Shown piece after piece: positions 3,152-59,357 of a stretch of 64,000 bases of DNA. The translations under genes were made by a program, and so were the position numbers. Source of the stretch: Blepharisma japonicum (lineage: Eukaryota > Ciliophora > Heterotrichea > Heterotrichida > Blepharismidae); assembly GCA_949751835.1 (NCBI GenBank), contig CATKHK010000052.1, positions 1 through 64,000 of the forward strand, given 5' to 3'. The stretch's first letter is position 1; each line of letters opens with the position of its first letter. The notes below the pieces were generated by a model, which did no database searches, had not been told where the DNA came from, and saw nothing but the letters and a program-made list of their open reading frames with translations.

Positions 3152-3362
3152 TATGATATTTTATTAATATTTACCTAAATTTTCCTCATTATTTTTTAAC
3201 GAACCTATGAGTATTTTTTATCCTAAATAATATGGTTTTTATTTATCTCCAGGAATTTTTTATTTCTCTTCTTATATTCTTTCTTTAACTTTTTTGAATT
3301 TCTTTATCTAATTTTAATCACCTAAATCTTTGCAGCAAAAATTATTATCCAAATTTGTTAAA

Positions 3363-18290: not shown

Positions 18291-18514
18291 ATCTATTTTT
18301 AATTAAAATAAATGAATTTTTTATAGAGAGAAGAATATTTTCACTGAAATAAATTTATAATACATCGTTAAAAATAATGCCTTTGTAAAATTTTTGCCTA
18401 CTTAAAGGTTTTGCAAAGTCAAAACTTAATAATTTTATTTAAAGAAATTAAGGTACATCATGATGATTTGCAAGCAATATGATATTATAATCCGTAAAAA
18501 CTAGCTTTATTAAG

Positions 18515-30061: not shown

Positions 30062-30238
30062 TCTAGTAATTAATAATAAAAGTGATTCATTTATACTCAT
30101 TGATGATTCAATTATTTTTATAATCAAACCTTCAGATTTCTTAAATTAAATCATAATTATTTTAAAAATAATATTAAATGCTACAGCAAATCTAATTAAC
30201 TTTTCACTGCTTATTTTAATTTTTTACCCAAAATTCCT

Positions 30239-30261
30239 AGCTCACACAGAGCTTGTGAGCT
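30239..30261. promoter_or_regulatory. Perfect 8-bp hairpin upstream of CNOT1
   Basis: agctcaca (30239-30246) and tgtgagct (30254-30261) are exact inverted repeats around a 7-base loop, followed by a T run. It lies 35 bases before the CNOT1 ATG and would be in the 5' UTR or core promoter. Function unknown. Confidence 0.45.
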
Positions 30262-30296
30262 TTTTAAGTGTTCCTATTAGTTTGCTTATAATAAAT

Positions 30297-33200: not shown

Positions 33201-36200
33201 GGAGCTTGGATTGGGTCACTAACCTTAGCTAGAAACAAGCCTATTTTGCTTAAACACCTGGACTTAAAAGATTTAGTTATAAAAGCATACGAAGAAGGCA
33301 CACTGCTAGCAATCATCCCATTTGTATGCAATATTTTGAAAAGCTGTGCAAACTCTGAAGTATTTAATAGCACTAACCCTTGGGTCATTTCTAATTTATC
33401 ACTTTTAGTAGAGCTCAAAAGCAAGCCAGAACTCAAGCTTAGAATTGTCAGTGAAATCGAGCTGCTTTTTAGGCTGCTAAAGCTCAGCCCAGACGACTTT
33501 CCAAAAACCAATCTTCTTGTGGCAAAAGAGACAAAGAAAACTCAAGACTTCGCTGTTAAAGAAGCACAAAGTCCACAAGAAACCATCCAATTGTCTGCTG
33601 AGCAAGGGATTTTGTCATCACTTCCAAGCTACGTCACGGTTTCTCCTAAACTAGCTGAACTGTATTCTGAGCCTGAATTGAGAAGGATGATTGCCCTTGC
33701 AATTGAAAAAGCTATTAAAGAAATCATTCAGCCAATTGTACAGAGAAATGTAAATATAGCACTGATTACCACTAAGGAGCTAGTGTTGAAGGATTTCGCA
33801 TTTGAAAAAGATGCAAATAAACTGCAGCAAGCATCAGTTTGGGTAGTTAAAAGTTTGGCTGGAAGTCTTGCACAGGTCACATCAAGAGAGCCATTCAGAG
33901 TCCATGTTGTGAATTTCTTAGCTGAAATTTTAAGGACTAGCACAACTCTTAATAATCAGACACTCAAACAAATCGTAGAGCAAGCAGCCTTAGACAACTT
34001 AGAGCTTGGGTGTGGACTGATTGCAAAAATTGTTATTGAAAAAGCAGTTAGTGATGTAGGTCAAGAAGAAACTTTGAAAGACGCTTTTCAAATGAGAAGA
34101 ATCAGTGGAGATAAATTCTATGACGAAAATGCAGCTGCAAGAAGCAGAGCTGTCCAATTTCTTCCTGACAATCTAAAGCCTAAGCTTTCCGGCCTGACTA
34201 AAGAGCAGTTTCAAGTGTACCATGACTTTGTGAACATAATAGAAAACCCCAAGAAAATATCCCAATCTCAGCCTGTTCCTCCAGCTAAATCTTCTCCATC
34301 TCCAGAAGCCAAGCCTGACAGCTCTCCTCAAAGCTTGAAATTTGATGATCAGCTAGAGCTGGCTGAATCCATAATGGTAGCTAAAAATGACATTGAAGAC
34401 CCAGAAGTGCAGCAAGCCATTTCTAACGTCACTCTTTCTGCAATTGCTTCTAACAGTAAGACTGAAAGTGCCTCTTTATGTGCCCAGAAACTTTTCAGAA
34501 GGATGTACACCACTGATGACTTGACTTCCTTTTATATCCAAATTTTACAAAACATCAAGAACCAGCAGAGGAGTATCACCAAAGAAATCACTTCATGGCT
34601 CATTTCCAGTGAAGACAGCAAGAGATTCTACTGGCCTGTTACAAGCGAAATAATCAAGGGTGATCTTATTCAGCTGAATGAGTTTGACAAGATAATGGGC
34701 AAAGCAATTGAAAATGATAATCAGATGGCTATTCAGTTTGCTGCCAGACTTATCAAAGAAATGCTGCTCAGCAGCAGAGTGGTAGCAAACACTGAAGTCC
34801 AGGATACGGTGGCAGCACTGAGGGCTGCAAAAGATAGGTTTCCAGGAAATGATGAGCTTGGAAGAGTCGCTATAGGTCTGAATGAAATTTCGTCCGAATC
34901 AAGAACGGTACCAACAATGTCAGCTGAAAAAGCGAGACTGAGAGAAGTGATTGAAGGGAAGTTTAATGAATGGCTAAATCTTACACTTGAAGAGCCTTTC
35001 ATTAATAGTGAAAAGGTTCCCACCTTTGTGAAGAGTCTTGAGCCACTTGGGCTGCTTAATTTTGATGACAAAATTGAATTTTTCTTCAAAACGATCGCAG
35101 AAATCGCAATTTCTAGGAGCAGATTTACAGATGAGGCATATTACGCACCAATCGATAGTTTTACAAAACTTTCACAAGTCATTATTGTGCTCGCGAGATC
35201 TTCACAGAAATCAAAAATATTAGGAAAAGTACTATCAGCTGTAAAATCATTAATAGTTGCTGCAGCATCTGAACCAATATTTAACCAAAGACCATACTTT
35301 AGGATTTTACTAGACATTTTGACTGAATCAACTCAGCCAAACGTTGTATTCCCAGACCAAGTTTTAGTGCAAGAGCTCTTGCTTCCAATTGCCAAGATAT
35401 TCCACGAGCTTAACCCTTGCCGAGTTCCAGCATTTGCCTTCAGCTGGCTCGAGTTGATATCTCATCGTTTCTTTTTGCCAAAGATGCTACGAACAGTGAA
35501 CATTTCTGCTGAACGAAGAGTGCCATCTACACACTGGAAAAAGATGCACTTGCTGCTTATGGATCTCTTTAAGTTCATTTATCTAAACTTCAGCAAAGTT
35601 CCTCTCACTGATTCTCTCAAGGCATTTTACCAAGGGGTCCTAAGGATGCTGCTTATTTTAATGCATGACTTCCCTGAGTTCTTATGTGACTATCATTCTG
35701 ACTTCTGCGACTATATTCCAGAACACTGCTGCCAGATGAAAAACTTGGTTTTAAGCGCATATCCAAAAACAATGAGGGTGCCTTTACCATTTACTCCTAA
35801 CTTGAAAGTCGACTTATTGCCAGAAATGAATGTTTCGCCTAATATTTTATCTTCCTACAAAGAAAAACTGTCATTTTTAAGCGTCAAAGATGATATTGAT
35901 AGATACTTCTCTGCAAGAGATGCCATCTGTGTTAAAGAAATTTGCAATAAAATGATGATCCCAGACCCATCAACTCCAGCTGAGCTAATAATCAGAGCCA
36001 ATGTGATTGTTATCAATGCCTTTGTGCTTTATGTCGCAGAGTGGGCACTCTCAGAAGGTGGAAATCAGCGTGATGCCAATGATCTGTTTTTGAGCATTTT
36101 ACTAAATCTTGAAAATGAAGCCAGAAAGCACTTTATCAACGCTATTGCGAATCAGCTGAGATATCCTAACTCTCACACTCAGTTTTTCTCATGTGTTCTT

Positions 36201-36452
36201 TTCTTCTTATTCTCTGAATGCAAGAAGCCAATTATTGAAGAGCAGATCTCAAGAGTCCTAACTGAAAGAGCCATTGTCCATAGGCCACACCCTTGGGGAA
36301 TCCTGATCACACTAATAGAACTCATTAAAAATCCAAGATACGAGTTTCTAAAGAAGCCATTTACCCGCTGCACCCCTGAAATAGAAAGATTATATGAAAA
36401 GATGAGCAAGAATTGTGTGCCAGGGCCACTGTCACAGATACTTAATAGTTAG
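30297..36452 (+). CDS. CNOT1: CCR4-NOT transcription complex subunit 1 (NOT1 scaffold)
   Basis: A 2051-residue scaffold of the CCR4-NOT deadenylase, with three TGA codons as Trp (GEWIEFLLL, EHWINERL, PVWKSPIEE) and no intron. Residues about 871-1071 form the MIF4G domain that binds the CAF1/CNOT7 nuclease (IPWFANYLVVKRV, NFQELYLKLL, LGAWIGSLTLARNK, AYEEGTLLAIIPF, NPWVISNLSLL). DUF3819, the CNOT9-binding helical bundle, is at about 1125-1215 (IALAIEKAIKEIIQPIVQR, NIALITTKELVLKDFAFE, SLAQVTSREPF). The C-terminal NOT1 superfamily homology domain, the NOT2/NOT3 dock, is at about 1600-2045 (LMHDFPEFLCDYHSDFCDYI, LPFTPNLKVDLLPEM). Start is the ATG at 30297 (MSGPES). It is somewhat shorter than human CNOT1 (2376). 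Confidence 0.95.
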
Positions 36453-36552
36453 ATAAAAATATATTCTTTAAAAAGTCTTTCCAGCCATTTTATTAAACGC
36501 ATGTGGATGCTTGCTAGAAGGTAAATGAGGACCAAGTCTCTATATTATAATT

Positions 36553-39240
36553 ATGGGAAACTGTTGTGCGCCAGAAAAAAAGAAGGAAGCCCTTCTGCCT
36601 CCAGAAACCAAACAAACAATACAAGACGAGCCTGAAGACGAGCCGAAAATCAACTTTAAAGCATGCATTTCAAAAATCAAAGTGAATGGGCTCGGGGTGG
36701 TAAGGAATAATTAGAAAAAAGCAGCTATCAAAATACGATTCGATAAGCTAGACTTCAACTTAGAAGAGAGGACTGCTTCAGAAGATGTTATTAAGTGGAG
36801 CGAGGAAAACAAGTTTGATTACTCCACCTCTCTTGCTCGAATGGATCACTCACTAATGAAGATTTGGATCATCGCAGAAAAAAAGGTCATCTCTTCTTCT
36901 GAGCTGAAAATTTCCAGCATCATCAATGGGCCTATACACACTAGTCTTTCTCTAGAGGACAGAGGAAAGCCCAAAGGCAGAATCAGCTTTAACGTCGAAA
37001 TGCTTGAAGAGACTCTTCTGATGATCGCAGCCAAGCACATTAACTGTCAGCTTGAAGACGACTCCACTGGCAGGTACACAGCATCGATCAAGTTTATGAG
37101 CAATTTTACCAAGGAAAGCCCACATTCAGATATCAGTGACAAGCCAAAATGGAACTTTTATGATGAAAATCCTGAGGCAAGCCCAACTCTTCAGTTTGGA
37201 GCGACCATCAAAACAGTTAGAGACGCTTCTATTCAGATTAGAATTTACAAGCATCATAAATCAGGGCCTGCGCTTGTGGCTGAGTGTTGGGTAGGGTTTA
37301 CCAAGCTCTTTCGAGAGGAAATGGAAAATATATATAGAACTGAGTCGTATTATGGAAGTTCAGAAGGGACTCTTTCCACTTTGGACTTCAATAAAATCAA
37401 GAATGCTTACAACAAAACACACTTGAAGACATTCAAAGAGGAGCTTTGGCTCTCAGGAAGAAGGGCTGGAGAAGTCTCTGGGTCTCTGAAAATTGCGTGT
37501 CTGCCTGTGTTCCAACAGTTGATTTCAGGAGTAAATACAGAAAAAGGTTACCAAGTACAAAGCTCTCATTTTACACCGCTGATGGGGAAAGCGTCAGGGA
37601 AATTGCCGAAAGAAATAGAACGGATAATTGAGCTCACTGCGAAAATCAAGGAAAGCGTTAATATGAAATCTAAGAGGGGCAACCCAGTTTTGAATGATAA
37701 AAATGTATTTAGGGAGAAGAAACAGAATTTTGATGAACTTTGCAAAATTTTGACGTCAAGCAAACGAGAATCAATGATATGCTTCACTTACACTGGAGAG
37801 AAAAACATATTAAAAGCGCAAAACTATTTGATTGACCTAGGTATGCATCTAGCTGAATACGCAGAGCTGGTGATGTATGATATAAAGCCTTATTACTTCA
37901 AAAGCCTGATGTGTCTTATCAGGCGAGGAGAGCTTGATATTGGCTACCTTTCGCTCCAAGATAACGATCCAACCCTTTTGCCTCAAAAAATAGATGTCGC
38001 GGTTAGATATTTGACACTATTTCATAAGATGCTCAAGCTTGCCTTTTCTCGAATGGTCTTCAAAGGGATAGACCAGATGACCCAAGAATATGTGGAGTGC
38101 ATGCTAGTTCTTGGTTGGTTCAGGGTTCCTCAATTTAGAGCTGCTATGGTAGAAACTCTCAAGAAGAAGTCTTTTCACCACATTGAAGAGTGGAGAGGAA
38201 CTGAAATAGACCTAGACAGCGATTCAGAAACAGCATCAGAGCTTGTATCAGTCATTGACTGGCCAAGTCTATTTTACAAGCTCCTTCCAGCTGAAATAAA
38301 AATTGAGCCTATGATCGCTTATCTGAATGACCAGGTGTGAATCAATAAGATCGAAAAAAGAGGAGTCGCATTTTTGAGGTTCTTAGAAGGGTGGGCTGAG
38401 CATGTAAATAAACAGTTCGTGGTACAGCATATTTTGTGGTCAAGCATCCCAGGGTACCCTGTGCTGCTGAAGTGCTTTTTGCTTGAGATGAAGGAAAGAG
38501 AAATTACTGAGTATCCTGAAGCTTTGATATCGGCAGCTTGTAAGCTTCTTTACAATCCTAAATTGATCAGTGTTATGGTTCGCATCATTTTTGGGAAAAC
38601 TAATGTATTTGACTACCAGGCTGTTCAAGAAAGTTATAACGTCTTAGGAAAGCTTTTTACTGCAATATACAGTTATGGCTCATTCCTACCTCCAACATTT
38701 GACAGCTCTTTCTTCTTAAAAGGGCTAAAAATCACTATGGAGCACGAAATAGGACTGAGTGTTGCCAAGGCAGTTTCGTTTCTTTATTATCACTACCATA
38801 TGATTCGAGGCCATATGAGAGAAGAGCTCCTCCTCCACTACATCCTGGAAGAGCAGTTTATCAGACTATTTTGTCATTGATGTGTAGACGTAAGAAGGAT
38901 GGTCTGCTATTTCTTTATTTTCCGCGTTCTCTCACTCGAATCTTTTTCCTTTGAGCCTGAAGACGATGCCAAGCTGAATAAAAAAATAGCAAGGAAGCTA
39001 AAAAAGAACTTAAGAAATATCAGGGAGCTCGCGAATGGAGAAGAAGCGACCTATATAGACAAAGCACTCTTGGAGTATGAGGGGATTTATAAGGAGTATG
39101 AAGAATGGAAGAACGTGCTTCCTGAAAAGTTCGGCAACGACCAGCTCTTTGGAGTTTCTGATGAATTTCCTTATCCCATTGTGGTTGTGAAGCTGAATTT
39201 CATGGATCTTGCAGAAAAACAGATTGAAGATGAGTGGTAG
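36553..39240 (+). CDS. MGNC-type C2-like membrane protein, paralogue A
   Basis: An 890-residue protein with one 15-nt intron (36710-36724) and TGA-encoded Trp residues (DQVWINKIEK, LFCHWCVDVRR). The N-terminus MGNCCAPEKKK fits N-myristoylation plus palmitoylation. Two beta-rich regions resemble C2 domains: about residues 36-190 (IKIRFDKLDF, KIWIIAE, ISSIINGPIHTSLSL, KGRISFNVEML) and 200-320 (ATIKTVRDASIQIRIYKHH, ECWVGFTKLF, GSLKIACLPVFQQL). The remaining 550 residues are helical, with IPGYPVLLKCFLLEMKERE and FFIFRVLSLESFSFE shared with paralogue B at 42680-45364. No enzyme motif was recognised. It is probably a lineage-specific membrane-associated family. Confidence 0.85.
36710..36724 (+). 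other. 15-nt intron in paralogue A
   Basis: gtaaggaataattag contains the in-frame TAG and joins KVNGLGV to KKAAIKIRFD in phase 0. The same position is interrupted in paralogue B. Confidence 0.9.
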
Positions 39241-39295
39241 TGATATCAAATACTAATAAACTAGCCTTATTTAATCCAATATTTTCATATTAAAA

Positions 39296-39820
39296 TTAAT
39301 AGCTAAAGCCTCTTTTGATAAACTCTTGCATCATAACTTGCACAAATTTAGGTCTTGACACCTTTAGCCCTTCAGTCAGCTCAGGAAAATCTTCTTTCAG
39401 TGCTTCTTCTGGGTTTACAACTCCAGAAATAGTTAAAGCATGAATCAAGCACTGATAAGGTAAGCTATTTTCTCCAGCAATATCATATGCCTCAAACATA
39501 GTCTCAAACTCTTCATTTGTAAAGTACCTTGGCTCCTGCATATTAGGGTGTTCTCTAAAATATCTGAGTTTTGTGAGCTGCTGCAAGATATGACTTTTCA
39601 CATTCTCAGGCTTATCATGAATCACTTGAGTGAGGAGCTTATTGAATAGTTCTGGGATTCCTTTTTCATTCAAATAAGTATTGATCTTTTCGAACTCGAT
39701 ATCTTGCTCTGGAGATGTGACTGGGTGCTCAATTTGCATATCAAAGTCAACAGCCTCCTTAGAAGTAGGTGAATGAAGCGCTGAGTCTTTTCCTTTCCCG
39801 ACTTTTAGTAATCTAACCAT
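39296..39820 (-). CDS. EFCAB10-like protein (RIIa/Dpy-30-like plus EF-hand-like lobe)
   Basis: A 174-residue protein. Residues about 40-80 (EFEKINTYLNEKGIPELFNK, LLTQVIHDKPENVKSHI) have the pattern of an RIIa/Dpy-30-type docking helix pair ending in the 'RPxNPxxFL'-like PENVKSHIL. The C-terminal half (FTNEEFETMFEAYDIAGENS, YQCLIHALTISGV) follows the EF-hand-like region of EFCAB10, but with few calcium ligands. EFCAB10-type proteins are found in cilia and bind AKAP-like helices in radial spokes or sheath structures. It converges with paralogue A (55-bp gap). Confidence 0.7.
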   Translation of the reverse strand: MVRLLKVGKGKDSALHSPTSKEAVDFDMQIEHPVTSPEQDIEFEKINTYLNEKGIPELFNKLLTQVIHDKPENVKSHILQQLTKLRYFREHPNMQEPRYFTNEEFETMFEAYDIAGENSLPYQCLIHALTISGVVNPEEALKEDFPELTEGLKVSRPKFVQVMMQEFIKRGFSY

Positions 39821-39858
39821 TTTAATAACTGAAGAATGACTTAAATTATTATATCAAA

Positions 39859-41658
39859 TTAAAGCTTAAACACACCACTACGAGGCCTGCATGGAAACAC
39901 AGGCCTTGCCATCATTTCACTTCCGGTGAACTCATAAACTTTAGGGACCAAGAAGTTCCCGATTTGGACTCCTGGGAGTTTCATATTAGAAGGAATCACT
40001 CGAGAACTTTGGATTTTGGAGCCTAGGATCCGTTTATTTTCACAGCTGGTTTCTATAGATCTTTTTTCACTGATTGCTTTGGTAAGGTAGGCACTGAGTG
40101 TTTCTCTTCGATTTGAAATTTTCAAATCAACTGAAGTCGGCATAGAAGAGCATTCTCTATGAGTTTTAGTAGCAGGATGATCTTCTGCTGGGACCATAGT
40201 TTTGGAGTCGAAATTCTGAACTTCTGCATAATTATCTGGACTTAGACATCTTGTCCTTGCAGTTCTACATCTTATAGATTTGTGGCTGTCTTCAATTAAT
40301 TTAGAAGGAGCACTCACAACTTCTGGCCGCTGACCTGCAGCAGGATCTTCAAGTCTTTTAAGTCGCGATGCTTGAGTGCCTGTTCATTCACTCCAGATCT
40401 GTTCAGCGGCCTGCAGGAACTGCTGATAGCTTGCCTTATTTTCTTCAGTATATGCCCTTGTAAATCCTCCCATATGTGAATCTTCTCACTGATTTCTGAG
40501 CTCTGCTTGGAGTCGCTGATTTTCTTTTCTCTCTTCTCTGGTTTCTCTTACTGCTTTTCCAGTTGATCTTTGCTGTGCTTCAATGCTTTTATTAATATAA
40601 TAATGCTTCCTATTGGAAGCCTTAATATTCATCATTTTGATGGATTCTTTTATAACTCGCTTCTTGATTTTCCAATCCAGTGGCGAGTCTGTTGTAAATG
40701 AAGGAGTGTGGTTAACTTCTAGCAGTCATGGCCTCAACTTGTGGTCAATCAAAATGTCAAGTCCTAGTATTTCAAAGCACATAGAGTTCGAAAGATCATT
40801 TGGCTGGCATGATCTATATGTGTGCGACAGTGAAGGCTGAATTGCACAAAGAGTCTTAACTATCATGTCTCCAATCCTTGCTTTCAAAGCATTGGCATCA
40901 TGGCCAAGACTTTCAAAGAAAGCTAAGGTCGACTTCAAGCTTCGCTTATGCCCACTATCGTCTTCTTCAGCTTCTTCATTGAACTCAAAAAGTCCACTGT
41001 GCTTATTGACTGCATAATTTGTTAAATGCATGCACGCATCTTTCATATTCTTTTTTTTTGGTTTCTGGTACTGATGAGTTGCTAGCCTTGTTAGCCCATC
41101 TTCATGGATAAATACCCTCAGAGGGTCACAACCAGCAACGAGTGCATAAACTCTTAAATCAAATTTTAGGCCGTCAAGCAAAAATGGGCTTTTTACATAC
41201 TCTTGAGCAACATAGCCTTCTGTTACTGTTAAATCTTCAGGTTTTTTTACAAGAAATATCCCTCGGCCTTGGCATGAAGCTTCTGGCTTGACAATAAAAA
41301 TTTTCTTCTTTTTATCCATTTGTGCTCTGAAGTCCCCAAGATCTCCTGGCAAAACCCATGTGCGAGGATAGAAATTGTAGTCCTTAGGGAAGAGCTTCCT
41401 CATTTTATTGAGACTCCATGCCAAATTGCTTTTTCTTGTGATTGAGTACATTCCTGGAAAATGGTTGATTTTTTGAAATGGCTTCATACTGCAAAGTTTT
41501 TCTGGCTGCACTGCTGAGTCGGTTCATTTGAGATCTCAGTCTGATTCTTCACTTCTTGTGAGTGTCATCCCAAAGACTTTGCTTGCCACGTGTTTGACTA
41601 CTTTATATTTGGTGTCTCCAACGTTACAGATCAGTTTTGATTTCTTCTTTTCTTTCAT
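39859..41658 (-). CDS. Tubulin-tyrosine-ligase-like polyglutamylase (TTLL6/13-like)
   Basis: A 599-residue enzyme that adds glutamate chains to tubulin tails in cilia and cortical microtubules. The frame runs from ATG 41658 through several TGA (Trp) codons: EESDWDLKWTDS, LRPWLLEVN, NQWEDSH, SEWTGTQ. Conserved TTLL elements in order are KINHFPGMYSITRKSNLAWS, FYPRTWVLPGD, ATP-binding FIVKPEASCQGRGIFL, VAQEYVKSPFLLDGLKFDLR, MHLTNYAVNKHSG and LLEVNHTPSF with its metal-binding Glu and Asn. The 250-residue C-terminal extension is basic and likely disordered. No intron. Confidence 0.93.
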
Positions 41659-42679: not shown

Positions 42680-45364
42680 TTACCAAATATCATCAATGTG
42701 CTTCTCGCCTAGATCCATAAATGCAGTTTTCACTCGGATTTCGGGATATGGGAAAGAGTCGCTCCAGCCGTAGAGCAAGGTCCCAGGAGATTTTGGAATC
42801 CTACTCGATCATTTTATATACTCTTCACCAATTAATGCGTACTGTTCTTTTGCAGCTTTGAGGTAAGGAAGTTGCTCTGGGTCGTCGATTTCTTCTAGCT
42901 TCTCAAGTTTATATGCAACCTTTTTTTTTATTTTTTCATCTAGTAATGCATCAGAATCTTCCGAAGTCTCAAATGAAAAAAATTCAAGTGATAATATCCG
43001 AAAAATAATTAAATAGCAAAAGACCTTTCGTACTTCAGGGTGCCAGTGGAGAAAAAGCTTTTTGAACTGCTTTTTTAAAAGAAAAGAGTAAATAATTTCT
43101 TTCCTCAAATTGTCTCTAACCATATGATAATTTCAATAGAAAAACTCAAGGCACTTTGCAATATTAAGTCCAATATCACAATTAATAGTCACTTTTATTC
43201 CCTTCACAAAGAAATCAGTGTCAAATGATGAAGGGATTTTTCTTTTATATTCATACATTGTTTTAAAAAATTTACCTAGTAGCTTAAAAGTCTCCTGGAC
43301 AGTTTTGGCGCTATAGATGTTCGTTTTTTCAAATAATATCTTTACTAAAGCGTTGATAATTTTAGAATTATGAAGCATGCTGCAGATGGAGCCAACCAAA
43401 ATATCTGGGTACTTTAGTATTTCTCTTTCTTTCATTTCCAGTAGCATGCACTTAAGCAAAAATGGATATCCAGGAATATTGGCCCAACGGATATTCTGGG
43501 AAACCACTTGGCCATTAACCTGTTCTACTCATTCTTTTAGAAACTTGAAAAATTCAAGTCCTCGCTTGGTCATTTTTTTCTTTCAGCTCGATTCAGAAAT
43601 GCAGGACTGAAGCTGGTCGAATTTGATTTCACTTGGAAGCACTGAGTAAAAGGTGCTTTGCCAATCAAAAATTGAAATCACATCACTTTGAGGCTTCTCG
43701 TCTTCCAAGTCAATTTCTAAGTTTCGCCATTCTTCAATTGGGTAAAAAGATTTTCGTCTCAAACAGTCCATCATTGTTTTTCTAAATTCAGGAATTCGGA
43801 ACCAAGCTTTCACAAGAATGCAGTATACAAATTCTTGAATTAGCTCATCTAGCCCCTTTAAGACAAAGTAGGTTAAGGAAATCTTTAACATTTTATGCAT
43901 AATAGACAGATATCTAGCTGCGATTTCTATCTTTTGTGATGAAAAATTTTTAGTTCCTTTCGCAAATGCAAGATAGCCAATAGCTAACTCTCCTCGCTTG
44001 ATTAAGTGAGTTAAGCATGAGAAAAAATAAGGTTTAATGTCATAAGTAACACTGTCAATGTATTCAATTAAATTGCTTCCAAGTTCAATAAACAGATCTT
44101 GGGCTTTGAGAACTGCTTCTTCATTACTATACAGGAAGCATTTCATAGATTCTTTTTGGGAATAGTTCAATAGATCGATAAGTGAGTCAATTATTAATTT
44201 TCTTTCTTCAAACAGCAGCCTTTCACTTATTATTGGGTTTATTTCGGTCTGCTTCGAAATCATGCTTTTCTTCAATTTCCGAGTAAATTCAGTTATTTTG
44301 TGGATCTCTTCTGGTATAATTGTTCTCTGAAAAATAGAATTTCTCGCATAAGTATATAACGATCCCTGAGGCAGCACACCGTCTTCAGTACTAACACCAA
44401 TAATCAGCTGCTGAAAAACAGGCAAATTTCCAATTATTAAGCTTCCTTTAATAGTGCCTATCCTTCTGCCATCAAACCATATGCCTTCATTAAAAGACTT
44501 AACATAAGAGCAATCAAAGCTATTTTTCAGTGCATAAATGTCTAGTTTTGATTTTGCTGTGCTTTCAGATTCCTGACTGCCTTCTGGCCTATATATCTCT
44601 GAACTCTCTTTAAAAAGCTTGCTAAAACTAAGTCAGCAAGTCCCAGCAAATTCATAGCCTGATTTATGATGCTTGTGAATCTTGATTTGAATTGATGAAT
44701 CCCTGATGGTCTTGATATTTGCCCAAAATTCAACTCTAGGGACATGCTCATGATCTTCTACTTCTTCATAATTTCATGATAAACTTTTAGTAGCCTCTGA
44801 ATGGCCACTTTCTTTAGAAACATCACTTGAGTATTTGACTGTCATAGAATATCTGCCAAAAACTTCCTCATTAAACTTGCAAGAAATATTATTTGTTTCT
44901 ATAAAAGTTTTGGTTTCCTCTAACATTTCAACGTCAAGACTTATTCGGCCTTTCATTTTCTTCTTTAGCATGAGTGGTAAGCTATAGTGTACAGGCCCAT
45001 TCACAATTGAGGAAATCTTGATTTCAGTTTTTGCCTTTAACTTTTCATTAGAATACACTTCTAAAGACATTGCTGACTGATTAATGGCTTCCAGCAGCGT
45101 GGAATAGTCAAATCGTCTTTCGACTTTCCATTCGAAAGCTTCGTTTTCTTTGCTTTTTTCATCAAAATTCAGTTTCACGGTGTCGAATTTGATTATAAGG
45201 CTTGCATTGGCCTAAGTTAATCATACCTTATTGAGGCCAAGGATTTTTATGCTTGATATGCAGATCTTGAAGTCTAATTTTATTTTATTTCCTTTTCTAT
45301 CAACAAAACTCTCTACTCTTAAAATTGAGGGCTTTTTTTGGTTTGTTCGAATGCAATTACCCAT
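42680..45364 (-). CDS. MGNC-type C2-like membrane protein, paralogue B
   Basis: An 889-residue protein, paralogue of the + strand gene at 36553-39240. It starts at ATG 45364 (MGNCIRTNQKKP, again myristoylation-compatible) and has a 15-nt intron at 45212-45226 at the same position as in paralogue A. TGA codons are Trp (SLSWNYEE, GTCWLSFSK, EYIKWSSRI). Shared blocks are IKISSIVNGPVHYSLPL, KGRISLDVEMLEE, NIKTIRDSSIQIKIHKHHKS, LPVFQQLIIGVSTEDG, NIPGYPFLLKCMLLEMKERE and LIIFRILSLEFFSFE. Both proteins end in the same way (ALMDLGEKHIDDIW-like). Function unknown; two C2-like regions followed by a helical region. Confidence 0.85.
45212..45226 (-). other. 15-nt intron in paralogue B
   Basis: On the minus strand gtatgattaacttag joins KILGLNK to ANASLIIKFD in phase 0, exactly where paralogue A is interrupted. 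Confidence 0.9.
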
Positions 45365-45472: not shown

Positions 45473-48400
45473 TTAATTGCTTGTGCTCATCCTATACCAA
45501 AGTCAATGCAAAGATTTATTGATCAAGTCAGAAAGGAGCTCTTCTTCTTCCTCTTCAAGATTGCAACCAGAAACTCTCGTTACCAATTTCATACATATTT
45601 TATTTGTTGCACAGTTTAAATTAAGGCAAACAAAGATGGATGGGTTAGAGAAAACACACAGATCAATGTGACTTGGCTTCGTTATCATTTTGCACCTTTC
45701 CTGGTAGATTTTAATTAAATAATTAAAGTAATTTTGTGTAAATGCTTCTGTTAGAGAGCAAAGGTACTTTATTCTTTGATCGATCTCTTCTAAAGGCTCT
45801 ATTATAGATAACGATAGAAGCTCATTAAGTTCATTGTCAGTAAAAGTATCTGATTTAGACAAATTCTTGAGTTTCTGTCACAGATTATCCCTACGGCTAT
45901 GCATTTTGGCAAGCTTTATCGTTTCAACTAGAGATTTTTCTGTTTTCTTGATTATCATCTTTAAGGATTCTCCTGATTGCTCTTCATACATTGTATAGTT
46001 GATAATATAATATCTAATACTCATGATATTGTTGGTGTTTTTCCCTTCTTCAAGGCGAATAGTGCCTAAACGAGGCTCTTTAGTTGAAGCTATTAAAGAG
46101 TAAACAAACGCCCTTACGTTATTTTTGCCTTTATTTTCATTGGGCTGCGGCTGATTAAAAGTAGCAGTTCTCCCTTTAATTGGTGAAAGAGATCCGCTTC
46201 ATAAATTTGACTTATTAGGCAACTTTGTTACTTTGAAAATGGGATGAGGGCGATGGGAGTGTTTAGGAGTGCTCAGACTATATGCTTCATGATTATTTGC
46301 AATATAATTGTATATTTCTTCTGCACTTCCCCCCTCAAGATTTCCTAAATCAATAAAAATATAAGAGGAATATATTCAACTTTTAGCCTTGGGCGGGTGT
46401 GATTTATAAAAATGGATAAAATCTGTTAAAGTTCCCAGTATATCTATGTATGGATATTTTTCAGGAGCCAAAAGAAATTCACAAGTGTGTTTAATATACT
46501 GATCATATGCTAGAGTTGGCAAGTCAAGAGAACTTTTTGTAAGTGCATGAGCAGTGCTTTTTGATTTTATATCTTGGTTTTCAACTAAATATTGATCAAA
46601 GTTATTTTCATTATCCAAGGAATATGCTCGAGCTAAAATAAAGCCTTTTTCATATCCTAGCTCTACTAGGAGCACAGATTGTTTGTTTAATTTTTTCAGA
46701 AATAAGTTTATAGGTTTTATTTTATCTGGAATAGTTTGCTCTTCGCTATATGACCGTGTCAGCTCATATTCAGTATCAAAGCTGTCGTCGCACGAGTGTT
46801 TTCGGTGTCCTGAAAACTGGCGATATGGCACCTGCTTAAGCTTGAGGGGCCCTGAGATTTCAACAGAAATTGTTTTCAGTATTTTTCTAATAATTTTATC
46901 TATTTTTATTTTTGATTTCATCAATTGATATTGTGTGGTCTGAATTTTCCAGCTTTGGACAATAAATGGTATTTTTCGTGCGCAAATAAGATGCCCATGC
47001 TTTCTTATCTCTCTGACGAACTTAGCGTCATTCCAATCATAGGCATCCTGAATTCTTATGCCAACCTTATCATCAAAATTTAGCTTGTTAGATACAAATA
47101 AAACTTCATTGGCTTTGCATTTGTGAATCGGATCTTCAATTAGAGATAGAGGATGCCTGTATTCCTTAATTTCAGCTACCGAATTCACTGGTAATGTTAT
47201 GCCTTCTTCTTTGATTTCCATAATTGAGCACGTTCTCAGAATTTGTGCAGAAATTTGATCTTCAGGAGAATTTCTATTTTCTGGATATAGAAAATCATTT
47301 GGTAAATTATGACTATGAAGTCCTAGCTTCTGAATTAGTATATTGTTAAGAAGCCTATATCTCTGATTTATAGAATGAATATGAATTTCTACAAAACTAT
47401 AAATTTTTGCTAAAATTGATCGATTTCAATTGTAAGAAAATAGCAAAAACTGGGACTTTGATAATTCAAATCCTAGCAAGAGAGAACGGAGAAGAGTTTC
47501 TTCTTCAAAATTTTCTGAGTGAAACTTAAGGGAATTGAATTGATTTTGCTCATCACCTGCAGAGTAAAAAAATGCACTAAACCAAAGATCTTCACAGATA
47601 ATGTCTACTAATTCAAATTGCTTAAGTCAATGCTTTTTTATTTCTTCTATAGAGTTTTCAATGAAAATCTGTCTGCCTATTTTAAAGCAATAAATAAATG
47701 GAAGTGAAAACTCTGCAGCTTCATTTATAATTTTTTCAAGAGAGCAGAAGTAGGTGAATATTTCAAAAGGAGGGATTGATATATTTATTTTGGGATTAAT
47801 TATCTGTGTTGCTTCTATAGCAATTTGTTTTAAACTTTCGAACATATTAAGATAACTTGCTCCTATAAAATTATTTTTCATGGATGTTGACTTAAGAGTA
47901 TCTTCAATTAAATACTCAATCAAAGACTGGTTCAAATGTTGCTCGATAAAATCTAAAAATGCACTCTCATTAATATGCCCATTCTTATAAAGTTTCATCT
48001 CTAAATAATATCCAGGAAATGTAGGATAAGGCAAACATTTTACTTTTGCCCCGCCCGGTCGCCAAAATAGCCCAGTGATTTTTGGATTTACTTCTAATTC
48101 AGCACTTTGCTGCTTTTCCTCACTATAAATTGCATCTCCATCATAATAACAAATATTTATTTGGATTATTCCCAAAGCTTTTCCAAAGGTATTGCCAAGG
48201 AACGGAGTCAATTCCCTATCTTGTCTAGATATAAAGCGATTGGCGTTATTTTTTATGTAAACACTTTCTACAACAGTCAGATAATTATAAACAAAAACAT
48301 TGGACTCAAGTCCTTTAACTTGGAAATTCAATAGAAACTTCATCAAATTCTGCTTTATATATTTAAGAAACAGTTCCAAGCTAGAAACAAGATGAATTGG

Positions 48401-51400
48401 AAAGAATGCAATAGAAGGCAGTTCTGAGCCTTTAATAAATTGCATGTCACTAAAACTCATGACTTTTTTCTGATTTTTTATTAAGGAGTCTGCCAATTTA
48501 AACAAAGAGATCTGCTGGAGCTGCTCAAAAACCCTTTGCTCAAGCTTAGTAATTGTTTCTTCCATCGGCTTGTCTATGCCATATACTTCAAGAGTGAGAA
48601 ATTTAGTTTTTGAGAATGACGGACTTCTTTTCAGCTGAGGTGGGGAGAGTTCTTCATCGTTCTCCATCTCTTTTTCTGTGAATCGGAAGATAAATATATC
48701 TGAACCTTGAATAAGCATATATAAATCATTTCTATTATTGATTATAAATGGCGGAGTAGAAAATTTCATGGTGAGGGTGTTAACCGATTCATTTTTAGAT
48801 AATCGATCAGAAACACTAAAATTGTTTCTGTGCTGAATCTCCAGCTTGTATGATGTCTTTAGCTTTGAAACAGGAACACTTTCAGGGTTTTTAGACTTCA
48901 CATGAGAAAATCTTGAAAATCTCTTTTTGGCTCAATCTTTGCTGTCCTTGCTGCTATTTTCAGCGGAAAATGAATTTGAAATGTCCTTTGGCATTAAAAG
49001 CTCTGACAATTTGCCAGTTTTTCCCAAGTCATTGAGAAGAATTCTTTGATAAACATTTACTTCAATCTTCTGAAAAATTTTAAGTAGTTGACTTTTTACA
49101 ATATCAGCTTTTAAGCCCTGACTTGTCAAATGGTCAGGAAGAAAGAACGAGCACTCAAGTCCTGCTGTCTGCTTAATTTCAATAATAACCCAAAATAAAA
49201 TTAAATACTCATTGTCCTTATTCTTAGCCATTTCTTCACTTCCTGAAAATAATTTACCAATCAGAGATTCTTCGTCTATACACATGAGTTTGCTAAAAGA
49301 CTTAATGCCAGCTACATAGAAGTATTGATCAACAGATAAGGTTGAGATAACTAAGCCTCGTTCAAGCTCGAGCTTTATTATTTCACTGGCTTCCTCGCTC
49401 TCTTCAATTGAGCGCATAGTAAATTCAAATCTTACAGTTTCAGTTGTTTTTGCAAATTGTAAAAGTACTTCTTCAATGAGTTCTATGTTTAATTCTTTGC
49501 ATATTGATAAAGTATTAAGCGTTAATTCTGCAAGCAGGGACTGCAATTTTTCACTAATAATTTGGATCAATTCTTGAGCCGCAGTTTGTTTGGATGAAAC
49601 AGGGGAATCTTGAAGCTTCATCACTGCTTTTTCTTTCTGAAAAAAATTCGAATTTTGAAAGGAAAAAAGAGTAAGAATTATCTCAGGCTTTTCAATGCAA
49701 TTAAGTAATGATGTTTTGTAGTTAGAAATTTGGAGTAGGAATTTATTTTCTTTATATTGGTTTTTGTCTCTAAAAATGAAATATTCAGTATCATGAAGCT
49801 GAGAAAAATTGGAATTGATGAAGGATAAAAATTGGGAATCAATATTATCATAATTAGCTGCATTTAGAGCTAGAGTGTCTTTATCTCTCATTTTGATAAT
49901 AATATCTAAATCTGAACTCAACAAAAGATGTCGATATTTATTGAGCTTTGATACATTCAGTATTTCTTCATACTGCTCACAGCACGATAGCAACTTTGTG
50001 AAATCCGCTTCTATGATTGGTAACTGCAAGTCACATTTTCAAGAACTTCCTAAGAAGTTATAATATGTTCCTAATAATACGATCTTGTAAACTCTTTGAA
50101 TTAATAACAACGTTTTTTGAAAGATTGTATTAGAATTGTTTGCAATCCCGACAATTGAGGACCTTCTCTTTTCAAAATTAGCAGAATCTATTTTATTTTG
50201 TAGACATTCAAATACATAAATAGGGAACATTTTGCCATTGCAATTCATTTCTTCTAAAAGCTCTTCAAATTCAGGTACCGTTCACATGATAACTCCATTG
50301 CTACACTCATATCTAGCAAAATAGCATTGATTTTTCTGTAATAATTGATAATCTGCAATATCACCAAAAGCTCTTAACATAAAGTTATAAACATACTCAA
50401 AAATGAGTCTATATTGTTGAGAATTTATATCAAAATCTATAGAAAATGTTTCATAGTCAAATTTCCAGCAACTTGAGTGTCTAAGCAGAAAATCAAGTTC
50501 GATGCTATGGTTTCCAATTTCTTGAAAACTTGAAGCAACCTCATACATTTTTTCGTACATTTGGATTTTGAGATCCTCAAACGTTTCTGCTTTTTCAAGA
50601 TTTTCTGCTTGTATATAGCAAAAAAGGTCATCTTCATCGGAAAAATCAATCATCTTGAACTCTCCATTGTTTTCTAATAGATCATTACTGTTGCAAAAGT
50701 TAAGTTTATTTTCCAAGCATTGAAATATCAGAGAGTCAAGAGAAAGAAGCGATTTATAAATTGATTCGTCATATATCTCATATTCATTTTTAAGATCTAA
50801 TAAATCTTCACTGTCATCATAATAATTGGCTACAGAAGGCTCATGATAAAATTCTACAAAAACTGAGCAGTCAGAGATATACATCAAATATTGGATAAAA
50901 AAAATTCTTCGCTTATTGTCAGCTTCGCATTCATATGGCTTTATAAATAAAAATTTGTCTTTTTCTATGCATCCAATCGCAATGAAGCCTTGCTTTGTTT
51001 TAGAAGTATACAGGGTGCTCAGAAAGAATTGAGCAGATTTAATTGTTAACAAATCAAATTGATTTGAAAATCCACACATATAAGACTTAATCACTTTATT
51101 GTGAGGCCTATAAGTGAATAGTGAATAGACTCTTGATTTATAGTTCTTTTTACGATAAGTTTCTTCAACAACAATTTTCCCAAGTGGGCGATCAAATACA
51201 TCTAAAGCACTTTTCCTCATGTTTTGGATGCAAAGCTGATACTTTTCCATTCTAAAAGAATTCGAGCAGCCAAAGAACCCAAAATAGATTGTTGCTTTAT
51301 TATAGAGTTCTCACACAATTTTTATTATAAGCAGTCCAGATTTTTCAATCAATTCAATATATGTGTCATCAAGAAATAATCCTGACCCTAAAGTCCTTAT

Positions 51401-52801
51401 TTTTTCTCTGACTTTATCTCTCCCATATGAAATTAAATGATCTTGGCTTTGCTTAGCAGTTAATACATCTAAAGTTTCGAAATGGAACCATTTCTGCCAT
51501 TTTGATGTAGGCAATTTTGATATTTTCTCGTATAGCGACTTCTGGTCTTTAAACTCTATGTCTTGAAAAATTCCAAATACAAACTTCTCATTTTCTTTTA
51601 TATTTTGAATTATGTACAGCACTCGAGATGCAAGTGAAATTTTGGATTCCTTGGAAAAAACGGCAGCAACCTTTTCTTCTTTTTTTAGTTTTTTAAAAAG
51701 AGATTGCTTGCAGATAATGCTGAGCTCTATTATACTTTGTCTTGGATTTTCAATATTCAAAGTATATTCAATTATTGTATTAAAATGCAAAATAAATCAA
51801 AAAACTAGTTTATTTGGTTGAATGGCTCTTATTTGGAAGCCTTCACGAAGAATGCACTCCACTAAAATTTCAACTGGGACTTCGCAATGATAATGATCTA
51901 AATAGTATTTCTGAGAATGAGATTTATTCAAAAAATTTATATCTCCACAAGATTTTAGCACAAGTTTCTTATAGAAGATTTCTCTGACTTTTGATGTTAT
52001 ATCCTCTGGATTTATCCATGTACCTCCAGAAATACTTGTCATGAGTTTGATTGAGGTTGGGTCTGGAGTAAAGCCATATTGAAAAGACTCAGGAGGAATA
52101 TTTTCAGACAAATTAATAAGGTTAAGAGCGACATCAGCTCTGCAATACTGTACAACAAGTCAGTCATAAATTCCAGATGCTAAATTAGAGTTAGTGCAGT
52201 CTGTTATATATATAACTGCTGGCATACTTGGCTGATCCATTAAATCCAGTGCAAATAAAGCTCATTTTAATGTAGAGGCAAAGTCAATTTCATTTTCTTT
52301 GGCTCCATTCAAAAAATTAGTGCTTAAATCATTACATATCTCTTCCATATAAGACTCAAATTGGTCTATAATATCATCTGGCTTGAAGCCTTCTCTAAGA
52401 TCAATTGACTGTACCACGACATGAAGTGGCTCTTTTGGAGTTCTGACACAAATTATTCCTAATTCAATCTGAGTATCTATTTCTTGTGAATAATTGAGAA
52501 CAGCTTCAATCAGAGTCCTCAAGACATTTGGTATTCTATTGCCTATTGATTCATTTAAAGCGAAATTATATGCATATACAGAAGGAGCTAGATCGATCAT
52601 AATTAAAATCCTGTATTTTATATATCTAAATCGAACTGAATCTTCAAGTATTGATGTACATGTTTCCCAATTATAATTGAATTCTGAATCATTTTGGACT
52701 GATTGTGGATTGCATAAGTACTTTCAGTATCATAAAGCTCTTTCAACAAATGAAATAACCCTGAAATCAGAAAGAACTACTGAATCGTTCTCGGATGACA
52801 T
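45473..52801 (-). CDS. SZT2: SZT2-like KICSTOR scaffold protein
   Basis: A single 2442-codon frame from ATG 52801 to TAA, with about fifteen TGA codons as Trp and no intron. The N-terminus parallels SZT2: a short leader, VRFRYIKYRILIMIDLAPS (SZT2 VTFLAWQYRFVIELDLSPS), a Rossmann/VWA-like region ending in KWALFALDLM...PAVIYITDCTNS (SZT2 ILALQLL...GIIVITDGVTS), then VPVEILVECILREGFQI (SZT2 VPADLVSTVSVRLREGY), an IEY motif, and KWQKWFHFETLDVL (SZT2 SWQRWLHMHRLVLIL). The rest is divergent. SZT2 links GATOR1 to lysosomes and Rag GTPases for amino-acid control of TORC1. NPRL2 of GATOR1 is the divergent neighbour, 307 bp away. It is shorter than human SZT2 (about 3430). Confidence 0.82.
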
Positions 52802-53108
52802 TTTTGTAATTAAATTATTAATAGAATGATGATCATCCTAATTCTTGACAAAAGCAGCAGTTGTATTAATTCTAATTGGCTGATAAAGTGCATATAATTC
52901 TTCACCAAAGCACTTATTTAAATAATACTTCGCTTTTTATTAATATAATTTAAAGTTACAAATATAATTTTCAACTAGTCTTATGATATGAAGCCTTAGG
53001 GGTTAGTAATTATTTCTTGCTTCAAAAAAGCTAAAAAGTAGATGAGTTATAAAACAATTAGATAAACAGTTAGTATATTTTGAATTTGCACATTAATTCA
53101 TTTATAAA
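52802..53108. promoter_or_regulatory. Divergent intergenic region shared by SZT2-like and NPRL2
   Basis: 307 AT-rich bases separate two start codons pointing outward, so the promoters of both genes must lie here or overlap it. No specific motif was recognised. Confidence 0.6.
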
Positions 53109-54278
53109 ATGATAAGCTGTGTCATGTTCTGTGAGTTCCACATAAAGCAAGGCCCAGCTTTAGTTTACCAATATCCTGAAAATTATCTCTCCAAAGACAC
53201 CTTTGATTCTTTATCTGATATCCTTATCCCGCGTCCTGAACTCTGTGGAAAAGTCATAAGTGTCCAAGTTGTCGGTGATGAATATATTATAGGTCAGCCT
53301 GTAATCATCGTGAACGACAAATATGAGCGTCAGAAAATAGAATTCAATTTTGCTGTAATCATTCCAGCAGAAGAATACTCTCGTTTTTCTCTTTATGAAA
53401 ACATGATACGAAAACTTGCCTTACAGCTCACAGTTCTAGAGATAGAAAACGACTACATTTCTAACCAAGAAAAACAAAGAGTGATGGGGAAGCTCTGCAA
53501 AGACATTTATACACAGCTTTTAGAGAAAAACGAGTGCTATATCCCAATTGATAATTGAAATTTGATTATTATAGAGTTATCAAGCAAAAATAAAAGGTAT
53601 CCGCCGAAGATCAGGAGTTGGCATGTGCCAACTCCACTGATTGACTTGTATGATATTGTAGAAATCAGGTCTGATACTTCATTGAATAAAATTGTAAAAG
53701 CGATCAATGGAATTAGGTGCGTGAAACAGATAAGCGAATTTTCAAAGGTAGATGAAGCGCATGTAAAAGTGTGTCTCCAGCACCTGTATTATCATGGGAT
53801 GATTGAAATTTCAGACTATTTCCAAGACAGCAATATATATAGAATAACAGCAAAAATTGGATTAATTCTTACAGAATATGCTGAAGAGGCTGTCTTATCT
53901 TTAGCGAGAAACTCAGAAGAACCAGAAATTGATGAAGCTGGGCTGTTCGACTATTATTCTAAACTGTCCGATAAAACGATTAGAGAATTTAAGCTGGAAA
54001 ACCCTGATTTCGATACTATTGTAGATCTCCAAAAATTCATCAAATATGGTACAATAAGAGGGCTTATCAGGAGAATTCACAAATATTATGTTAAATACAA
54101 TGAATCAGTATTGAGGAAAACCAAAACAAATCCATTGGATTTAGAAACCATCAGAAAAGCAGGCGCCTATTTAAATGGAAAGCACAATCTCGACGAAATC
54201 GCATGTGTTTATTATGAACACAAGTCTCAAGAAGTAGAGAAACCAATAGAAGATGCATGTATAACTTTTTTAAAATAA
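53109..54278 (+). CDS. NPRL2: NPRL2, catalytic subunit of GATOR1
   Basis: A 389-residue protein read through one TGA (PIDNWNLIII). It aligns along its whole length with human NPRL2 (380): FCEFHIKQGPALVYQYPENY, RPELCGKVISVQ, YIIGQPVIIVNDKYER, KLALQLTVLEIENDYIS, LLEKNECYIPID, VCLQHLYYHGMIEI, IKYGTIRGLIRRIHKY, ending in the LNGKHNLDEIACVYYEH block. Arg74 in DKYERQKIEFNF occupies the position of human Arg78, the arginine finger that stimulates GTP hydrolysis by RagA. An N-terminal longin-like domain and C-terminal winged helices are expected. With NPRL3 and DEPDC5 it represses TORC1 when amino acids are low. Confidence 0.95.
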
Positions 54279-57123: not shown

Positions 57124-59196
57124 TTAGGATTTATTTGAAGAAAATTCACGATCCCAGCATGCAAACATTTCTTCATCATAAACTGGAAATCTTTCTTTAA
57201 AAGATTCAATAATTCCATCAAAGTTTTCTTCGTATCCTACCAATACAGGCTCATTTCCTTCCAATCTTGTATTGCATTGTAAGTCTAAAGACCTTGGCTT
57301 TTGATTAGCTACTATAATTTGCCTCAATCTATTAGCAAGCTCATCAATCGCAGAATACTTATCAAATACTTCTTTGCCTCTTACTACATCTCCACTGTAC
57401 TTAAAGCAATGTAGCTTAGTCAAAAATCTTGAAATTGTAGCCATTCCAACGCTATCAATTTTATTGTAATCCATTTTCACCAAGAATAGCCCATCATCTG
57501 TAAACTCAATTTTCAAAAAATCATCCCCAGCCTCAAGCATTACTCTAAATATCATATATCTTGCACAGCAGTGAGCTTGTCCCCATTTATTTGATTCTGG
57601 GCAATAAAGAAGGCCTTTTATACCTTGATAAGCCATATAAAGCCAAGTCATATTTCTGTGTCTTACAAAATCTCCAACACCAAAGATTTCAAATATTTCA
57701 GGGAAACTTGATAAATAAACAGCTACTGTTTCAGCTCGGCATTCTTCATAAGCAGAAGAAATTTCTCCAAATTTGCTTTTCCAAGACTCTTCATGGCTAT
57801 AGTATGAGTCAATTACTGCTCCTGTTGCAGGGTTTATTGCGCTTGTATCAAAATTGAAAGTGCCATCTTTACCTTTGATCAAGAATTTTCCTGTGCCATG
57901 CCCTAGTAATTCATGAGCTGCGACTGCTATGGTTTCGCTTTCAAAGTAGCAGTCAATAATTAACTGAATGTCTTCAGCAGTAAGATACTGTAAGTTTTTG
58001 GCATTAGGCTTTGGGTAAGCATTGCCCAAATTTACATTCTTGAAGCCTTCATTTGTAATTATTTCATCATAATTAGGTAAGTTGATACCAATAGGTACCC
58101 CAGAGGTAGCAAATGTTAATACTTCAAGTGACGTAAAATCTGGAGCTTGGAATTTTTCCTTTTCAAACACATTGCTCCAAGGCAATTTTGCTATTATTGA
58201 ATCGGCATTATTCACAAGATTTTGGAATTTTTCACTGGTTTCTTTGTCCACAAAGCTCACAAAACCTTCGTATTCTGCTCTAATTTGCAATGGGTCCACA
58301 TATGTTTCAATAAACCCAATATTAGTCTCAACAACTGGTCCTTTATCTTTGATCCATTCTCTCTGTGCATTCTTATGGTCTACTATATTTCCTGTATTAA
58401 AATGCTTAATATACTCTGAAATCATTTTTTCTTGAGTCCTGTTTGCACAGTAAGGAAGAGTGTCTGCCAAATTGTCAACGACACGGGCTAAAAACACACT
58501 GAAATCTCCATTAACAATTCTAAACCTTTTGCTTTCATAAGTATACTCTCCTAGATTTTCGAACCAATGTTGAGATTTACTAGCTACACGTATTTCATAT
58601 TCATCACCTACCTTCCAAAGTCTGCTATTAAAATGCAAGTCAACGAGGTTTACGCTTTTGAGGAAATTTTTAGCCAGTTCTGCATCTTGTGATGTTATAT
58701 TGCTAGAGTAATATGAAGTCACTCCGCCTTTGTCTGGAAATCCTAGCTGCCTTCTGTTAGGACTATAGTCATAAACTAAATCTTTGATTAAATTCCAAAT
58801 ATAAGCTAATCTGTCTGAATTGATATTGCTTACTAGGATATCGAGCTTTTCTTTAGCAAGTTCTGGTACGATTTTTGTGTCTCCGAAACTAAGGTAGTTT
58901 CCACAGTTCGTATAGATTCCGGCTGCATATGCTTTGAATTGCTTGATATCTAGCTCTGTAAAGCTGGCTTCTTCGAATTTTTGGCTGATGTTAGGGACTG
59001 AGAAAATTTCTTGGAGCAATAGGAAAATACCTGGAGACTCATAGGATTTTTGGAAATAGCAAATTTTACTGCCTTCCCAACAAGCTTTGGAGTAATAGTG
59101 AGAATACAATTTTTCTTTAAGCGTAAGTTTGTTCCATGCTTTAAGGCAATCTAATATCTGGACAGGGCTTTCAATATGAATAAATCTGCTGGCCAT
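57124..59196 (-). CDS. DPP3: Dipeptidyl peptidase III (M49 metallopeptidase)
   Basis: A 690-residue cytosolic zinc exopeptidase that releases dipeptides from oligopeptides. The M49 zinc motifs are complete: AAHELLGHGTGKF at about residue 426 (HExxxGH, two His ligands and catalytic Glu) and YEECRAETV at about 483 (third ligand Glu). Other family blocks include LGFPDKGGVTSYYSSNIT, KGPVVETNIGFIETYVDPL, VNLGNAYPKPNAKNLQYLT and WGQAHCCARYMIFR. The length is close to the human protein (737). It is intronless with no TGA. Start at ATG 59196 (MASRF). Confidence 0.95.
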   Translation of the reverse strand: MASRFIHIESPVQILDCLKAWNKLTLKEKLYSHYYSKACWEGSKICYFQKSYESPGIFLLLQEIFSVPNISQKFEEASFTELDIKQFKAYAAGIYTNCGNYLSFGDTKIVPELAKEKLDILVSNINSDRLAYIWNLIKDLVYDYSPNRRQLGFPDKGGVTSYYSSNITSQDAELAKNFLKSVNLVDLHFNSRLWKVGDEYEIRVASKSQHWFENLGEYTYESKRFRIVNGDFSVFLARVVDNLADTLPYCANRTQEKMISEYIKHFNTGNIVDHKNAQREWIKDKGPVVETNIGFIETYVDPLQIRAEYEGFVSFVDKETSEKFQNLVNNADSIIAKLPWSNVFEKEKFQAPDFTSLEVLTFATSGVPIGINLPNYDEIITNEGFKNVNLGNAYPKPNAKNLQYLTAEDIQLIIDCYFESETIAVAAHELLGHGTGKFLIKGKDGTFNFDTSAINPATGAVIDSYYSHEESWKSKFGEISSAYEECRAETVAVYLSSFPEIFEIFGVGDFVRHRNMTWLYMAYQGIKGLLYCPESNKWGQAHCCARYMIFRVMLEAGDDFLKIEFTDDGLFLVKMDYNKIDSVGMATISRFLTKLHCFKYSGDVVRGKEVFDKYSAIDELANRLRQIIVANQKPRSLDLQCNTRLEGNEPVLVGYEENFDGIIESFKERFPVYDEEMFACWDREFSSNKS

Positions 59197-59357
59197 TTAT
59201 TAGTGAAAAGAGTTCATTAAATTTCTGAATAAAATCAATAAATAATTATTTGGCATAAGAATATGAGCCAAGTAAAATTGCTATTTTTATATAAAATACT
59301 AAAGTAACTCTTTTTATGAAATATAGAAAGGTTTAATCATAAATTTTTTAAATAAAA

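Follow-up and report, generated by a model that had tools for sequence, protein, structure and literature searches.

The window analysed here is a 64,000-nucleotide stretch of contig C52 of the Blepharisma japonicum assembly (45.2 Mb, 224 contigs), and it holds two divergently transcribed genes that we assign to the amino-acid-sensing arm of target of rapamycin complex 1 (TORC1). On the minus strand, an open reading frame (ORF) at 45473-52801 encodes a 2442-amino-acid (aa) homologue of SZT2, the scaffold subunit of KICSTOR; on the plus strand, positions 53109-54278 encode NPRL2, a 389-aa subunit of GATOR1. The start codons are separated by 307 bp (52802-53108), so the head-to-head arrangement described in the initial annotation is confirmed, and its call of NPRL2 was rightly unambiguous (Pfam NPR2, E = 5.1e-60; human NPRL2 of the GATOR1 structures in PDB, 1.7e-45 over residues 2-345); the genome has one match to NPRL2 at E <= 0.001. 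The position of human Arg78, which we take to be the catalytic arginine of GTPase-activating protein (GAP) activity, is kept as Arg74 in alignment to human NPRL2 (codon 53328-53330, plus strand). We hold with high confidence that the large gene encodes SZT2 and belongs to a complete set of KICSTOR genes in this genome, standing beside NPRL2 of GATOR1.

The large ORF is found, with 2442 codons, where it had first been placed, once TGA is read as tryptophan. It contains 15 in-frame TGA codons (the NPRL2 ORF contains one) and under translation table 11 is interrupted at every one of them. Ten of the 15 stand opposite tryptophan in the paralog described below, the other five being opposite I, G, a gap, R and E, and two of those ten sit in motifs (YNW and RRDxLW) in which human SZT2 has tryptophan too. 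TAA and TAG do not occur in the ORF, against ~146 expected from base composition; together with the alignment to tryptophan in the paralog and in the human motifs, this supports TGA as a tryptophan codon. The same reassignment is reported for Blepharisma stoltei, a 41-Mb, 66% AT genome with 25,711 genes and introns mostly of 15-16 bp (PMC9942806), to which the AT-richness of the window and the inferred 15-nt introns described below also correspond.

Identification of the large protein draws on a second full-length SZT2 gene on contig C11 (532199-539722), whose 2507-aa product shares 39% identity with it across 2390 aligned columns. In PDB searches, this paralog alone matched SZT2 at 1.7e-8, and a two-sequence profile of both proteins matched human SZT2 at 6.3e-12, with the best non-SZT2 match at 0.12. 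Five blocks, colinear in both proteins, are printed in the profile alignment, and the two in the C-terminal half score 18.8 and 14.8 bits, the N-terminal one 5.8 bits and the other two -0.2 and -4.0 bits. The block scoring highest against human SZT2, both by the profile and with the paralog, spans residues 1773-1839 with the motifs YNW and QKLGL (47285-47485, minus strand), and a further block in the profile alignment, residues 2290-2377, runs from RRDNLW to EEIDQRI near the C terminus (45671-45934, minus strand). The initial annotation had named four N-terminal blocks as matching SZT2 (YRILIMIDLAPS, PAVIYITD, LREGFQI and KWQKWFHFETL); all four are present in the translation, but only the PAVIYITD region is covered by the alignments with human SZT2 that HMMER printed, at 5.8 bits, and the main sequence signal comes from C-terminal blocks outside these four. 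The ciliate protein retains both ends of SZT2, with a shorter middle.

A partial third copy of the C-terminal end of SZT2, a fragment of 161 codons behind in-frame stops, lies on contig C12 (match at 376905-377357), and is either a truncated duplicate or a relic. Around the full-length paralog on C11 stand an aquaporin-like gene downstream, and a short unidentified ORF and calpain-like ORFs upstream, the names aquaporin and calpain being our assumption from recognition of the sequences rather than the outcome of a search.

The predicted fold points the same way. AlphaFold models of the two halves of the large protein, built from two or three sequences only, were compared with PDB by Foldseek. 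For residues 1-1000, SZT2 chains ranked 1-4 of 831 (4.3e-11 to 8.7e-7), followed by a Ku entry at 8.5e-5; for residues 1390-2442, chains of KICSTOR entries ranked 1-5 of 1081 (2.3e-8 to 2.9e-6), followed by a match at 0.041. Foldseek output gives entry titles without chain names; the sequence-search listings identify 9o5d_E, 9o5a_D and 9v0j_D as SZT2, whereas 9o5e_E and chain A of 9v6e, 9v86, 9v9n and 9van are taken to be SZT2 by entry and length, the four C-half chains besides 9o5a_D being, at 750-1120 residues, too long for another subunit. The N-terminal part at residues ~62-287 (51941-52618, minus strand) appears VWA-like, with alternating strands and helices in a model of low predicted local distance difference test (pLDDT) values, and the N-half model containing it matched 9v0j_D, an SZT2 chain from a GATOR1-KICSTOR entry, at 8.7e-7; judged by the composition of PDB entries, this would be the end associated with GATOR1 in human structures. 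The fold of both halves, as far as low-confidence models can tell, thus ranks SZT2 above other proteins, in the structural comparison that had been proposed at the outset, and the reading of the large protein as SZT2 is upheld by the significant profile match and by this SZT2-led ranking over other VWA proteins.

The remaining KICSTOR subunits, KPTN, ITFG2 and KICS2, to which the initial annotation had pointed as a check, are all encoded in the same genome, making four of four. A search with human KPTN found a single locus up to E = 10, at 1.2e-26 (31% identity to human), and the spliced ciliate protein in turn retrieves only KPTN from PDB at E <= 1 (best 2.1e-27). KICS2 (C12orf66) is represented by two loci over the Pfam cut-off (L012:1288-2430, and L011 on the minus strand), whose products are 40% identical; their profile matches KICSTOR subunit 2 in PDB at 5.4e-8, with the next other family at 0.37. 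This divergence of ~40% resembles that of the SZT2 copies (39%), and the pairs possibly make two matched scaffolds. ITFG2, after removal of one inferred 15-nt intron, matches its Pfam family at 6.7e-8 (32.6 bits against a cut-off of 27) while other beta-propeller families stay under their cut-offs, and its best PDB match is ITFG2 at 1.9e-4, with the next at 0.25. Such 15-nt introns are inferred in several genes, including one KICS2 copy, ITFG2 and KPTN.

Other components of the pathway are also encoded. All three GATOR1 subunits were found, with DEPDC5 (IML1, 2.7e-56) and NPRL3 (NPR3, 3.8e-12) joining NPRL2; for NPRL3, three of six matches lay over the cut-off and clustered, and the three weak ones were dropped. 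GATOR2 has five subunits, and MIOS, the only one searched for, was found by its C-terminal part (8e-58). The genome has two Sestrins, one of which was compared with PDB (1.3e-57). Matches to Gtr1_RagA numbered 70 at E <= 0.001, all over the cut-off; the three strongest (1.1e-88, 1.1e-52 and 5.1e-50; 300.9, 183 and 174.3 bits) were taken as Rag-family loci, and the remaining 67, none above 42.4 bits, are probably other small GTPases. SAMTOR (PF11968) matched neither this genome nor the control genomes, so that its absence is not established.

Several observations weigh against reading the large gene as SZT2 within a full KICSTOR set. By itself the protein is not significant against PDB: a phmmer search of 177,635 distinct PDB sequences returned three matches up to E = 10, which are SZT2 without exception, with values of 0.51, 3.2 and 3.2. 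Neither Pfam nor NCBIfam gives it a family at E <= 1; two of the five profile blocks score negative by themselves, and a single weak, negative-scoring block is all that the alignment prints for the stretch separating the VWA-like part from the C-terminal half. The protein is ~1000 residues shorter than human SZT2, and neither ciliate copy (2442 and 2507 residues) has the ~3400 residues and full middle region of an SZT2 of usual size; we do not regard size as essential to SZT2 membership. The half models have mean pLDDT values of only 32.5 and 33.7, most of the last 140 residues reaching ~60-84 with dips to ~50, and template modelling (TM) scores against SZT2 are low, reaching 0.49 for 9v0j_D when normalised by target length and 0.07-0.21 in the other comparisons, for which reason we rely on ranking rather than superposition. 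ITFG2 in its unspliced six-frame match stays under the Pfam cut-off (17.9 of 27 bits), and the introns are inferred from genomic sequence. Finally, Raptor_N had no genome match at E <= 0.001, a result that is suggestive only because 14 control genomes were silent too; the same search method found several other pathway families, and the pathway's usual target may thus be missing.

The lack of a Pfam family, the E value of 0.51 and the low-confidence models would also suit a different VWA-containing giant whose likeness to SZT2 is superficial, as would the make-up of the N-half Foldseek list at E <= 0.001, in which four of 21 matches are SZT2 and 17 are Ku, TFIIH and similar. Ku and TFIIH are, however, expected among the matches of a VWA fold, and a better fit to another VWA protein was rejected, as they rank behind SZT2: the E values of the top SZT2 match and the first non-SZT2 match of the N-half differ by ~six orders of magnitude in favour of SZT2, the C-half model excludes the VWA-like part and still ranks SZT2 first, sequence comparison also puts SZT2 first, and the three partner subunits are all in the genome. 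We regard this alternative as largely refuted and very improbable. An animal or fungal source of the genes, through contamination or lateral transfer, is in our view the least probable of the explanations considered: KICSTOR has indeed been reported from animals and early-diverging fungi (PMC11836306, PMC10957897, PMC8534245), but SZT2, NPRL2, DEPDC5 and the Sestrins carry in-frame TGA, one KICS2 copy, ITFG2 and KPTN have inferred 15-nt introns, identity to human is low (KPTN 31%) and the loci are spread over many contigs. It is also unlikely, with a higher probability than these two, that the four KICSTOR proteins serve another role, ciliary or cortical, without tethering GATOR1. SZT2 knockout cells contain more ciliated cells than controls (PMC8534408), ciliates are heavily ciliated and Raptor_N was not found (with control genomes silent too); however, all three GATOR1 subunits, the Rags, MIOS and the Sestrins are co-retained, and the N-half model matches SZT2 chains from GATOR1 entries.

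The layout of the pair invites a further explanation, compatible with SZT2 being part of a full KICSTOR set: that scaffold and client are co-regulated from a shared promoter. With random gene order, the chance that an SZT2 gene adjoins a GATOR1 gene is ~0.05% (2 x 3 x 2/25,711), and the chance that any two of 15 pathway genes adjoin is ~0.8%, both computed after the fact and with a gene number borrowed from B. stoltei (PMC9942806). Against co-regulation stand this judgement after the fact and the intergenic distance, which is ordinary for the window: divergent neighbours elsewhere in it, with both ORFs 250 aa or longer, are separated by 211 bp (3152-3362), 639 bp (17876-18514) and 161 bp (59197-59357). 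The arrangement does not recur at the paralog, where a conserved SZT2-NPRL2 pairing was rejected because the paralog is on C11 and the matches to GATOR1 subunits map to C52, C36 and C7. We therefore treat co-regulation of SZT2 and NPRL2, which the initial annotation had suggested, as a hypothesis, and a doubtful one.

The window is AT-rich, with a GC fraction of 0.39-0.40 at 28001-40000 and of 0.30-0.38 in the remaining 2-kb steps. A tandem pair of WWE-domain genes (815 and 774 aa; 24691-30061) lies directly upstream of a CNOT1/NOT1 gene (30297-36452). Two DUF1765 proteins of ~800 aa are encoded in inverted orientation at 36841-39240 (plus strand) and 42680-45070 (minus strand), flanking a tubulin-tyrosine-ligase-like gene (39859-41658), and on the far side of NPRL2 lies a Peptidase_M49 gene of the dipeptidyl peptidase III type (57124-59196; Pfam 5.1e-193), presumably DPP III by name. 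A scan for viral contigs gave a pattern match to one stretch and confirmed no relative.

Having favoured SZT2 within a full KICSTOR set, we consider how the products might work. In PDB, the 1245-residue SZT2 chain of 25ge and 25gf is the C-terminal part of the protein (offset 2187 to the full chain) and is accompanied by KPTN and ITFG2, in 25gf by KICS2 as well, while 9o5d and 9v0j combine SZT2 with NPRL2 and do not appear among the entries matched for KPTN, ITFG2 or KICS2. From this composition of the entries we infer that the N-terminal half of SZT2 grips GATOR1 and the C-terminal half carries the other KICSTOR subunits. In the ciliate, the N-terminal half would accordingly hold DEPDC5-NPRL2-NPRL3 and the C-terminal half would hold KPTN-ITFG2 and KICS2, and the assembly of KICSTOR and GATOR1 might sit on the lysosome or food-vacuole membrane. 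Mammalian KICSTOR tethers GATOR1 to the lysosome (PMC8534245, PMC11836306), and by analogy the ciliate complex is predicted to act as a GATOR1 tether. When amino acids are scarce, GATOR1, with the conserved NPRL2 arginine, would stimulate GTP hydrolysis by RagA, and amino-acid input could arrive via Sestrin and GATOR2 (MIOS). These steps beyond gene identification, from assembly and membrane targeting to GAP activity and starvation response, we consider probable, with less assurance than the identification itself. A more tentative proposal, which we rate somewhat below even, is that a full KICSTOR-GATOR1-Sestrin-Rag arm with at least one GATOR2 subunit, and without RAPTOR, controls something other than canonical TORC1, such as TORC2, a replacement adaptor or a Rag-only effector, and that the SZT2 and KICS2 genes, each present in two copies, may supply a pair of alternative KICSTOR scaffolds for a single GATOR1.

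To us the most interesting point raised by this locus is the output of the arm should RAPTOR indeed be missing. In Paramecium and Tetrahymena, RAG and GATOR1 are reported present and RAPTOR absent (PMC5745459), and another study found no RAPTOR in any ciliate it examined, with RICTOR retained, its main text being without Stentor or Blepharisma (PMC12467227). The puzzle is sharpened here: in a group reported to have lost RAPTOR, the present ciliate retains the amino-acid arm upstream of it, and Rag-GATOR function without TORC1, as well as a possible TORC1-independent ancestral role of KICSTOR, become directly testable in this organism. If the genes were vertically inherited, KICSTOR would predate the split of opisthokonts from the SAR (stramenopile, alveolate and rhizarian) lineage, its absence in budding yeast and flies would then be loss, and this nutrient switch may have arisen long before animals and fungi did.

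Published accounts of its range are narrower. KICSTOR has been termed mammalian-specific, with an SZT2 homologue in Caenorhabditis elegans, and is said to be lacking in yeasts and Drosophila (PMC8534245); it has also been termed vertebrate-specific (PMC10957897), and early-diverging (non-Dikarya) fungi were added to its range in 2025 (PMC11836306). The statement in the initial annotation that KICSTOR is known mainly from animals therefore agrees with the reviews that call it vertebrate- or mammal-specific, but needs amending for these fungi. Among the literature matches listed, the scope of which leaves aside subscription papers and automatic database annotations, there was no report of KICSTOR or SZT2 in a ciliate, and a literature search on SZT2 with Tetrahymena gave no match.

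Several known systems are close to that of the ciliate. Yeast SEACIT and SEACAT are the equivalents of GATOR1 and GATOR2. The RAG-GATOR1 system of free-living ciliates was described by Tatebe and Shiozaki in 2017 (PMC5745459), in whose main text KICSTOR and Sestrin have 0 occurrences. Compared with the human pathway, the Raptor_N and SAMTOR families were not found in the ciliate (control genomes silent too), and SZT2 and KICS2 are each duplicated. All four subunits of human KICSTOR nevertheless have ciliate homologues, and the N- and C-terminal blocks of ciliate SZT2 follow the human order, with the middle shortened such that the chain has 2442 residues compared with 3432 in human. KICSTOR and Sestrin homologues are likewise reported from non-Dikarya fungi, with SZT2 multicopy in some lineages (PMC11836306); those hosts are opisthokonts, whereas the host here is an alveolate.

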